A stretch of 64,000 nucleotides of DNA from an uncultured Alphaproteobacteria bacterium (GTDB taxonomy: Bacteria > Pseudomonadota > Alphaproteobacteria > RF32 > CAG-239), in contig CALXTV010000002.1 of NCBI GenBank assembly GCA_944391505.1, positions 62,001 to 126,000 on the forward strand, in the 5' to 3' direction. Of the stretch, positions 22,107-61,231 are shown one piece after another; position 1 is the first letter of the stretch; each line of letters begins with the position of its first letter. The notes under the pieces were generated by a model, which was not told the origin of the DNA, ran no database searches, and saw only the letters and a program-made list of their open reading frames with translations. A program made the translations under genes and the position numbers.

Positions 22107-22134
22107 TTGCAAAATAGAAATCAGACTTTATAAT
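22107..22134 (+). promoter_or_regulatory. Promoter of RNA-HTH module 1
   Basis: TTGCAA (22107-22112), a 16-bp spacer and a perfect TATAAT (22129-22134). The same boxes and spacing precede module 2 on the minus strand at 61009-60982, where the first part of the spacer (AATAGAAATC) is also identical. Confidence 0.75.
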
Positions 22135-22139
22135 CTTTC

Positions 22140-22311
22140 TTGCTGTCAGCAATGGTTAGGCCGGCGGCGGAGCGTAGAAACTCCTTATAACGAAATATAA
22201 CCTCCTTTGTGGAGGATGACGCGAAATAAGCCGCTTTTGCGGACGAATAAGTGTGCTGTCGTTATACAGTTTCTAACTCCTCCGCTCTCTTTTGAGAGCG
22301 GTTTTGTTTTA
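22140..22311 (+). ncRNA. Conserved structured leader RNA, copy 1 (unrecognised class)
   Basis: A long stem is formed by GCGGAG (22167-22172) with CTCCGC (22280-22285), GAAACT (22177-22182) with AGTTTC (22268-22273), and TATAACGA (22186-22193) with TCGTTATA (22259-22266). It encloses two hairpins, CCTCC-TTTGT-GGAGG (22201-22215) and CCGC-TTTT-GCGG (22231-22242), followed by ACGAATAAG, which is identical in copy 2. The middle stem has a different sequence in copy 2 but pairs perfectly there too. A terminator-like hairpin CCGCTCTC-TTTT-GAGAGCGG (22282-22301) plus TTTTGTTTT shares bases with the outer stem, so only one can form at a time. The downstream gene is a small HTH protein. Confidence 0.75.
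22282..22310 (+). terminator. Terminator-like hairpin of RNA element 1
   Basis: An 8-bp stem with a TTTT loop and a T-rich tail lies between the RNA and the HTH gene. Its 5' arm overlaps the closing stem of the leader at 22282-22285. Confidence 0.7.
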
Positions 22312-22334
22312 ACAAAACATTGAAGGGGTTGAAC

Positions 22335-22622
22335 ATGATGAATCAGATAAAATACGTATCACAAGCAAAGCAAAAACAATCCGCCTTAAGGCGGACGCTG
22401 GGCGTCCAGTTGTTTTCCTGCCGGCACAAGCTGCGGCTGTCTTTGAAACACGTTCAGGATAAGACCGGCGTTCCGATACGGGTCATTGACCGATTGGAAA
22501 TCGGCAAAGGTGACATTCGCTGGGGTTATCTTCTGTTGCTGCTGAATTATTATGAACAGACGATTAATTTCGGCACCCTGCTTGAAGGCGAAAGCGATCC
22601 CGACCTCGAAGAAGACGCCTGA
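22335..22622 (+). CDS. Small HTH protein linked to structured RNA 1
   Basis: The start ATG at 22335 (followed by a second ATG) has AAGGGG 6 nt upstream, and the region from the terminator to the start is almost identical to module 2. The 95-residue product has a basic N-terminus and an XRE-like helix-turn-helix: LSLKHVQDKTGVP (KTGVP at 43-47), then RVIDRLEIGKGDI. An acidic tail follows (GESDPDLEEDA). It is homologous to the 79-residue protein at 60533-60772. It may bind DNA or its own leader RNA. Confidence 0.8.
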   Translation: MMNQIKYVSQAKQKQSALRRTLGVQLFSCRHKLRLSLKHVQDKTGVPIRVIDRLEIGKGDIRWGYLLLLLNYYEQTINFGTLLEGESDPDLEEDA

Positions 22623-30048: not shown

Positions 30049-30214
30049 GCATAGGAGGCGAGCTGTCCGGTGCGTAGTTTCCGCAGATCTTCCGAGCCAA
30101 CATTTTTATATAGGGAGCTGTCTCTGATTAAATCGTGGTTTAATTATATGGCGCCCACTTTGTGAGAAGCGGTTCGATAAGAATGTCCCATACGGCTGAG
30201 ACGGCCCCTCCGTT
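30049..30214 (+). ncRNA. ssrS: 6S RNA
   Basis: 6S RNA mimics an open promoter and holds the sigma-70 RNA polymerase. The segment follows zapA directly, the conserved genomic position. Its ends pair (GGAGG at 30054-30058 with CCTCC at 30207-30211), extended by interrupted pairing inside. A central asymmetric region and a T run (30213-30219) follow the expected layout. A TTGCAA box (30016-30021) and TGTAAT (30037-30042) upstream could serve as promoter. The call rests on position and layout, as a covariance model could not be run. Confidence 0.75.
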
Positions 30215-60532: not shown

Positions 60533-60772
60533 TTACTCTTCCAGGCTGACCCGGATTTTCTTTCCATAATAACCGCAGAGCCGGAAAAGCTTAAAAATAT
60601 CGGCGCAGTTTCCCCTCTCCAGACTATCGATTATCCAGCACGGCACGCCGGTTTTCTTTTCGACTCTTTTGATGCTTAAACGACGGCGCCGGCGCTCCTG
60701 CCAGAGAATTTGGCCGACATCTTTCAAAAACTCTTTTTTGATTTCTTTTTTGGACATTTGTTCCATCATCAT
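60533..60772 (-). CDS. Small HTH protein linked to structured RNA 2
   Basis: The ATG at 60772, first of three in-frame ATGs, matches the position of the module 1 start and has AAGGAG upstream. The 79-residue product has a basic helix and an XRE-like HTH: RRRRLSIKRVEKKTGVP (KTGVP at 40-44), then IIDSLERGNCADIF. It lacks the acidic tail of copy 1. The two proteins share L-S-x-K-x-V, K-T-G-V-P, I-D-x-L-E and a following DI, so they are homologues. Confidence 0.8.
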   Translation of the reverse strand: MMMEQMSKKEIKKEFLKDVGQILWQERRRRRLSIKRVEKKTGVPCWIIDSLERGNCADIFKLFRLCGYYGKKIRVSLEE

Positions 60773-60795
60773 GTTCAACTCCTTCAATGTTTTGT

Positions 60796-60976
60796 TAAAA
60801 CAAAACCGCCCTTTCGGTCAGAAAAGGCGGAGGATGTTGAAAGCTGCAAATAGACAGTGTGCTTATTCGTCCGCAGAAAGCGGCTTATATCGCACCATCC
60901 TCCCTTGCAGGAGGTTATTTTTTCTATTTGAGGAGCTTTCATACTCCGCGGCCGGTCTAACCGTTTCCGACTGCAG
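60796..60976 (-). ncRNA. Conserved structured leader RNA, copy 2 (unrecognised class)
   Basis: The same stem as in copy 1 forms with different sequence. P1 pairs 60944-60949 with 60827-60832 (identical to copy 1). P2 is GAAAGCT/AGCTTTC (60934-60940 with 60839-60845), and P3 is CAAATAGA/TCTATTTG (60923-60930 with 60847-60854). P3 differs from copy 1 at most positions but still pairs perfectly. Inner hairpins are at 60899-60914 and 60871-60883, followed by the identical ACGAATAAG. The hairpin at 60806-60830 overlaps the P1 arm, as in copy 1. Confidence 0.75.
60806..60830 (-). terminator. Terminator-like hairpin of RNA element 2
   Basis: CCGCCTTTT, loop CTGACCG and AAAGGGCGG form a 9-pair stem (one U-G pair) followed by TTTTGTTTT on the minus strand, the same tail as copy 1. 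Confidence 0.68.
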
Positions 60977-60981
60977 AGATG

Positions 60982-61009
60982 ATTATAAAAGCAGATTTCT
61001 ATTTTGCAA
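60982..61009 (-). promoter_or_regulatory. Promoter of RNA-HTH module 2
   Basis: On the minus strand TTGCAA (61009-61004), a 16-bp spacer and TATAAT (60987-60982). The -35, spacer length and the spacer start AATAGAAATC are the same as in module 1. Confidence 0.75.
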
Positions 61010-61037
61010 CGGCTTTTTTATAAGGGGACGCCCTTGA

Positions 61038-61155
61038 GCGCAAGCTGTTGCCAGCTTGACCGCACCACCGGCTGCTTTGAGAATCTTTGTTGAAACGCGC
61101 AAGCTGTTGCCAGCTTGACCGCACCACCGGCTGCTTTGAGAACCTTTGTTGAAAC
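61038..61155. repeat. 59-bp tandem repeat, two copies
   Basis: Two units of 59 bp (61038-61096 and 61097-61155) differ at one base. Each contains AAGCTG-TTGC-CAGCTT, a perfect 6-bp hairpin (7 bp with flanking bases). The unit length is not a multiple of three, so it is not a coding repeat. It lies between the Sel1-gene 3' end and the module 2 promoter. No gene is seen in the rest of 61010-61231. Confidence 0.9.
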
Positions 61156-61231
61156 GCGTTGCTTCCTGCGTGCATATCGTGAGGCCGTGCCTTGTGTCTG
61201 TGGATATAGCAAGATATAAAAAAACAAAAAA

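Follow-up and report, generated by a model that had tools for sequence, protein, structure and literature searches.

The window analysed here is a stretch of 64,000 nucleotides from an uncultured alphaproteobacterium (contig CALXTV010000002.1). At two places it carries a structured RNA followed by a small gene for a helix-turn-helix (HTH) protein. A preliminary description took these modules for members of a dispersed family of RNA-protein pairs, rather than for one local regulatory leader. This raises the questions of whether such a family exists, whether its RNAs and proteins are truly paired, and what the RNA does to the gene behind it.

Copy 1 occupies positions 22107-22622 on the plus strand; copy 2 is inverted and lies on the minus strand (60533-61009), about 38 kb apart from copy 1. 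Both have the same order of parts: a promoter, an RNA with a three-way junction, a terminator, a short leader with a Shine-Dalgarno (SD) sequence, and the small HTH gene. Within the window, the preliminary description was right in its placement of the two modules, their opposite orientation and their layout. The near-identical stretch that it noted upstream of the start corresponds to the 20-mer GCGGTTTTGTTTTAACAAAA, which has exactly two matches in the window, at 22298-22317 (plus strand) and 60790-60809 (minus strand), a number reached in none of the shuffles of the window. The KTGVP core was also found in both HTH proteins, which are 42% identical. The terminator-like hairpin and the near-identical stretch had been listed as separate elements. 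Both are present, but they overlap, with the 20-mer comprising the 3' end of the terminator, the U-tract and the back-pairing AACAAAAC sequence.

The putative promoter of copy 2 (60982-61009, minus strand), assigned by consensus match only, consists of a -35 box TTGCAA (61009-61004), a spacer of 16 nt and a -10 box TATAAT (60987-60982). Boxes and spacer are identical in copy 1, where they were read from the sequence (22107-22134, plus strand; TTGCAA 22107-22112, 16 nt, TATAAT 22129-22134), and close variants occur in other copies of the genus. An RNAalifold consensus of five copies predicts a 5' hairpin with GGUUAG in its loop (60944-60975, minus strand), the stem of which covaries (TCGG/CCGG versus TCAGC/GCTGA, as read from the sequences). 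The RNA core, matched by a covariance model in copy 2 (60827-60949, minus strand, E = 3.5e-40) and copy 1 (22167-22285, plus strand, E = 6.3e-35; G000:C2:84167-84285), is made up of P1, P2a, P2b, hairpin P3 (CCUCC/GGAGG) and hairpin P4, which carries a conserved internal loop, GAWAUAAG / GACGAAUAA. At its end lies a stretch that we call segment C (TCAACATCCTCC, 60829-60840, minus strand). It is complementary to the SD region of the HTH gene, with which it is predicted to pair in a read-through leader. Sequence and fold suggest an intrinsic terminator, CCGCCUUUUC-UGACC-GAAAGGGCGG with UUUUGUUUU (60797-60830, minus strand), and a palindrome, GUUUUGUU-UU-AACAAAAC (60789-60806, minus strand), is predicted to form a hairpin in the read-through transcript; terminator and palindrome were read from the sequence of copy 1 at 22282-22318 (plus strand). 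The SD sequence of copy 2, GAAGGAG (60779-60785, minus strand), is predicted to be paired with segment C, mostly with a probability of 0.6-0.9. The HTH genes encode 79 amino acids plus stop in copy 2 (60533-60772, minus strand) and 95 amino acids plus stop in copy 1 (22335-22622, plus strand; profile E = 4.8e-28).

The palindrome is exact in five copies of the genome, and its variants retain pairing (GTTTTGTTTTTAACAAAAC; GGTTTC..GAAACC; GTTTTTG..CAAAAAC). Its reading as a strict operator is weakened, as the spacing is TT or TTT and the arms change with compensation; both fit an RNA hairpin better, although the palindrome may still serve as an operator. We rejected the view that the RNA is a paralogue of 6S RNA, as a canonical 6S RNA is found at 30057-30211 and its fold differs. 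A coding sequence inside the RNA was also rejected, since in-frame stops differ between copies and stem changes are compensated. Just upstream of copy 2 there are two tandem units of a short repeat, AAGCTGTTGCCAGCTTGA (units of about 60 bp, window positions 61022-61160), which has about 25 matches genome-wide, several of them adjoining other modules (C2:53046-53231, C2:153521, C25:3127-3202).

The modules are not confined to the window. Exact matches to the 18-mer GTTTTGTTTTAACAAAAC number five in this genome, all of them inside such a module, and a search with R1, a covariance model built from seven RNA cores, identified 15 module copies. R1 matches were present in 92 of the 126 family genomes sampled and in 14 of 16 genera, with a maximum of 27 in one genome. 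All seven genomes of the genus (Azospirillum sp. CAG:239 and metagenome-assembled genomes) had between 2 and 15 copies each; from this company, the bacterium studied here is most likely associated with the gut. Strong matches outside the family were rare in a 385-genome sample of the class. These counts, and the HTH genes found behind most of the RNAs (see below), bear out the earlier claim of a dispersed family as opposed to one local leader. The RNA-HTH module family is genuine and dispersed, and it appears to be previously undescribed. Gut-associated alphaproteobacteria carry, in up to 27 copies per genome, a structured RNA family that is absent from Rfam and in nearly all cases linked to a small regulator gene.

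The folds of the two window RNAs are more stable than those of dinucleotide shuffles (z = -5.7 and -4.2). Evidence for a real, conserved structure comes from 109 aligned sequences, in which 95.9% of the cells at 35 base pairs are standard pairs. Cells with two-sided changes number 971 versus 248 in shuffles, the covariation score is 0.70 versus 0.19, and the signal is lost on sliding the partners. Support is strong for P2a, P2b, P3, P4a and P4b, and weaker for P1; overall, the covariation is overwhelming. The ground-state fold is nevertheless uncertain, because P3 and a pairing between segments B and C need the same segment. Segment B pairs beyond permuted pairs both with segment A (z = -6.3) and with segment C (z = -11.9).

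An HTH gene lies downstream of the RNA and on the same strand in 113 of 123 distinct RNAs, upstream in one and antisense in none. The ten exceptions comprise five RNAs cut by a contig end, one with a truncated HTH remnant (L051) and four without any HTH gene, the latter corresponding to 4 of 118 evaluable RNAs. Conversely, the module proteins make up precisely the 14 best HTH profile matches of this genome, and among ten weaker XRE matches an RNA was nearby only at L303, which adjoins a known module. The proteins are mostly 75-120 amino acids long and very diverse, with many pairs near 20% identity. The match of the copy 2 protein to Pfam HTH_25 (E = 4e-4) is below the curated cut-off, as are the Pfam scores of the window proteins taken singly. 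The family profile, on the other hand, matches HipB, C.BclI, ClgR and Cro-type structures. An AlphaFold model (pLDDT 91.8) resembles HipB (Foldseek TM about 0.7; 1.3 A over 61 columns), and the lambda-repressor-like helical fold together with the profile similarity places the proteins among the XRE/Cro type. Median dN/dS of the HTH genes is 0.10 over 25 pairs, and the proteins are therefore under purifying selection and maintained. The HTH proteins are probably small regulators that bind DNA.

An Rfam scan of both modules gave no match above threshold. Below threshold, the RNAs resemble sRNA-Xcc1 (RF02221): a window copy scores 20.4 bits, far under the gathering score of 53 bits, which the module RNAs do not reach, and scores are higher for L182 and the L121 region (29.5 bits each), L077 (25.6 bits) and two bridging loci, L171 and L172 (35 bits), which R2 matches as well. 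All of these subthreshold matches agree in position and strand. Three loci (G404:C53, G244:C7, G012:C10) were detected both by RF02221 and, independently, by R1 or R2, and at L215 and L220 the strands that complete the same long P2 helix can be seen by eye in the 5' flank beyond the Rfam model. The position directly upstream of a same-strand gene is also common to the two. From these similarities, the module RNA is a distant, subthreshold relative of sRNA-Xcc1 or a member of its class. Among 20 proteins encoded downstream of RF02221 RNAs, we identified Bro-N (four above the cut-off and one just below), KilA-N (two), Rha (three and two weak), P22_AR_N (one) and SymE (one). Canonical RF02221 RNAs stand before antirepressor-type genes or symE at L255, L258, L260, L262, L263, L267, L276, L278, L281 and L254; a literature search found no paper joining sRNA-Xcc1 to antirepressors. 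The preliminary description had held that RNAs without HTH genes would count against it. Such RNAs do occur at the level of the superfamily, where the genes behind them are of the Bro-N, KilA-N, Rha, P22_AR_N, SymE or lipoprotein-like kinds. The lipoprotein-like gene, a small one, is found in this genome behind a separate RF02221-like RNA, L252 (G000:C11:21731-21815), in which GAACAUCC stands opposite the SD sequence GGAUGUUC with complementarity at 8 of 8 positions. A 1.4-Mb genome of another family, G219, has 13 RF02221-like matches, so that the RNA class has expanded independently a second time.

The complementarity between segment C, just before the terminator, and the SD region was assessed by comparing duplexes with the 20-nt HTH leader of the own module to those with permuted modules. 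Matched duplexes were stronger (79 pairs, z = -8.3), and a control placed after the start was not shifted in this direction (z = +1.3). Outside the genus, ACTCC is accompanied by GGAGT in 22 modules and by GGAGC in none, while GCTCC is accompanied by GGAGT in 12 (a G-U pair) and by GGAGC in 10. The same held for 26 RF02221-like loci of alphaproteobacteria whose downstream genes are for the most part unrelated (z = -4.9, 0 of 10000 permutations; control z = -0.1). For RF02221 loci across the phylum, a narrow window gave no significant result (z = -1.4, p = 0.09); a wide-window test of 26 such loci gave z = -9.7, with the control itself mildly shifted (-2.4). In all three sets, the 3' segment of the RNA is complementary to the SD region of its own downstream gene beyond permuted pairs, with the proviso that permutation does not fully remove shared ancestry.

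Predicted folds of the read-through leaders agree with this complementarity. In both window copies, the SD sequence lies in a helix with segment C, and this helix encloses the terminator and the GUUUUG/CAAAAC hairpin. In the predicted ensembles of 87 modules, the SD sequence is paired with a mean probability of 0.88. The partner is mainly segment C in only 45 of the 87, compared to 30 of 87 after exchange of the upstream RNA for that of another genus (p = 0.007).

Coevolution of RNA and HTH protein was not supported. Identity between RNAs follows the host genus (Spearman 0.52) and hardly the identity of the HTH proteins given genus (0.10), and 83 of 98 modules have their nearest RNA within their own genus (expected 25). 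Within this genome, RNA and HTH similarity are only loosely related (Mantel correlation 0.11, p = 0.17), and the two trees, the agreement of which the preliminary description had proposed to test, disagree. Identical P2b strands were found with at least four different HTH subfamilies. The clearest case of exchange is the comparison of copy 2 with a third module, L003 (G000:C2:153244). The two encode the same protein, with one change in the entire HTH gene, and have identical RNA flanks, but their P2b-P3-P4 middles differ throughout while pairing is kept. The middle of L003 is common to the orthologue in CAG:239 and probably represents the ancestral state; that of copy 2 resembles other modules. 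Copy 2 is, by this comparison, a recent copy of the third module (L003/L038) with a swapped RNA middle. The possibility of one very recent copy, also raised in the preliminary description, does not apply to the two window modules with respect to each other, but does apply to copy 2 with respect to L003/L038.

A module present downstream of thrS is missing there in six other genomes of the genus. With the swapped middles, this absence indicates that modules are gained or lost and that RNA segments recombine between copies. At the thrS locus (L246 in G002), the CAG:239 site appears, on inspection by eye, to have an HTH-like open reading frame and another sRNA-Xcc1-like RNA in place of the module, and the site 3' of thrS looks like an insertion hot spot. 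Two modules are decaying: in L051 (G000:C2:53447) the P2b strands do not match and the HTH gene has suffered an internal deletion, while L052 (C1:187222) has lost the 3' half of its RNA and keeps the HTH gene intact. No mobility gene was seen at the inspected module loci. Carriage by phages or plasmids received no support: an exact-pattern search of IMG/VR and blastn searches with copy 2 against phages (INPHARED) and plasmids (PLSDB) all gave no match. With their swapped stems, the many related copies are a natural experiment in the diversification of RNA regulators and in how these remain compatible.

Beside what was computed (the modules, their fold, the co-occurrence, the selection on the protein, the matched RNA-SD complementarity and the shuffling of RNA segments), transcription, termination, translational repression, action in trans and a target of the protein are what we infer. 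A sigma-70-type promoter would give rise to a structured RNA of about 180 nt that would end at the intrinsic terminator, and read-through transcripts would carry the small XRE-type HTH gene. The segment before the terminator (5'-AACUCC-3' and variants) would pair with the SD sequence of the next gene (5'-GGAGUU-3' and variants), so that segment C would mask it in the read-through transcript, with the terminator and the GUUUUG hairpin inside the helix. The finished small RNA could also bind the SD sequence of HTH mRNAs in trans, those of sister copies included, much as the C4 RNA of phages does with its targets. At four loci (L161, L117, L118, L078), two to four tandem RNAs precede a single HTH gene. 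The terminated RNA may hence itself be a product that acts in trans, because those upstream RNAs of a tandem that have a promoter and a terminator to themselves would have no other way to work. On balance, we favour the view that the module is a chromosomally dispersed riboregulated cassette, composed of a C4-like SD-masking leader or antisense RNA and a small XRE protein. More tentatively, and with rather less confidence than doubt, we propose that sRNA-Xcc1-like RNAs are all portable maskers of SD sequences and form a single large class, in which many govern phage antirepressors. One of them would have been joined to a small XRE repressor in a family of gut alphaproteobacteria and multiplied to a genome-wide network of up to 27 modules, the terminated RNAs of which would silence all sister HTH mRNAs in trans while RNA segments pass between copies. 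The modules also suggest what the sRNA-Xcc1 class, so far poorly understood, may do, and in a form open to testing: it would mask the ribosome-binding site of the gene next to it, which is often that of a phage antirepressor.

The near-perfect co-occurrence of RNA and HTH gene would also be expected if each HTH protein bound its own RNA, as the preliminary description had it. Such specific pairing is very improbable, given that RNA sequence tracks genus and not HTH type, that one P2 stem stands with four or more HTH subfamilies, and that copies 2 and 3 share a protein and differ in their RNA middles. The idea of cognate pairs should give way to one of SD-masking riboregulation in which the RNA and the protein parts recombine freely. 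An RNA-antitoxin system, in which the HTH protein is harmful in excess, like SymE, and the RNA serves as a type I (antisense) or type III (protein-binding) antitoxin of a selfish addiction cassette, would account for the architecture of promoter, RNA, terminator and small protein, for the tandem RNAs (two to four before one HTH gene in four loci, as in type III) and for the unstable, dispersed copies. An RF02221 RNA stands before the gene of the type I toxin SymE (PMC12444791), and there are NCBIfam matches to HipB-type antitoxins. These matches, though, indicate the wrong half of a toxin-antitoxin pair; the fold is a DNA-binding XRE domain without a nuclease, and the RNA does not track the HTH protein, contrary to the cognate binding of type III. 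We consider this explanation unlikely.

The competing pairings may also fit another mechanism. In an attenuator or riboswitch-like leader, a signal would stabilise P3 with free segment C, the B:C pairing or P1 at the expense of the other folds and so control termination and SD access in cis. The pairing of B with both A and C speaks for such a leader, segment C overlaps the 5' arm of the terminator, and a ligand or protein could bind to the highly conserved internal loop of P4. RNAs that stand in tandem, each with a terminator, would serve no purpose in cis, however; the P2 stems vary freely among copies, and the genes behind the wider RNA class have no common metabolite theme. We regard a signal-controlled leader as a rather remote prospect.

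Several known systems resemble the modules in part. The likeness to sRNA-Xcc1 lies in the same order of the 3' half, namely a closing G-rich/C-rich stem, a hairpin with an AAUA..GAAUAA internal loop, a CUG/CAG or CCG/CGG element and then UUUCUAACUCCC, and in a multicopy, mobile RNA that stands upstream of a gene. In Xanthomonas, sRNA-Xcc1 is found in integron cassettes upstream of symE (PMC12444791). The module RNA differs in its long 5' strand, which forms P2 and is missing in the Rfam model, and in its XRE-type HTH partner, and no integron context was seen at the modules. With type III toxin-antitoxin systems of the ToxIN kind, the modules share a promoter, an RNA that is sometimes tandem, a terminator and a small protein gene, but the protein has the XRE fold only and is no ToxN-like nuclease, and the RNA does not co-vary with it. 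SymE/SymR likewise combines a small protein of DNA-binding type with an SD-directed RNA, and SymE itself follows an RF02221 RNA; SymR, however, is antisense over symE, whereas the module RNA precedes its gene on the same strand, and the protein belongs to the XRE type and is not SymE.

In its proposed mode of action, the module RNA resembles the antisense RNA C4 (RF01695). The C4 RNA of phage P1 is encoded upstream of an antirepressor operon, which is the same genetic position as that of RF02221 RNAs. No RF01695 covariance-model match was obtained in the loci scanned at E values up to 5-10, and unlike C4, the module RNA has its own predicted terminator. Large multicopy sRNA families in one genome have a precedent in the Group 1 sRNAs of A. 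baumannii, and in phages P1 and P7, antisense segments of C4 cover the ribosome-binding sites of its targets (PMC5320573). Segment C of the module RNAs, complementary to the SD region of the target gene, would be the counterpart of these segments.
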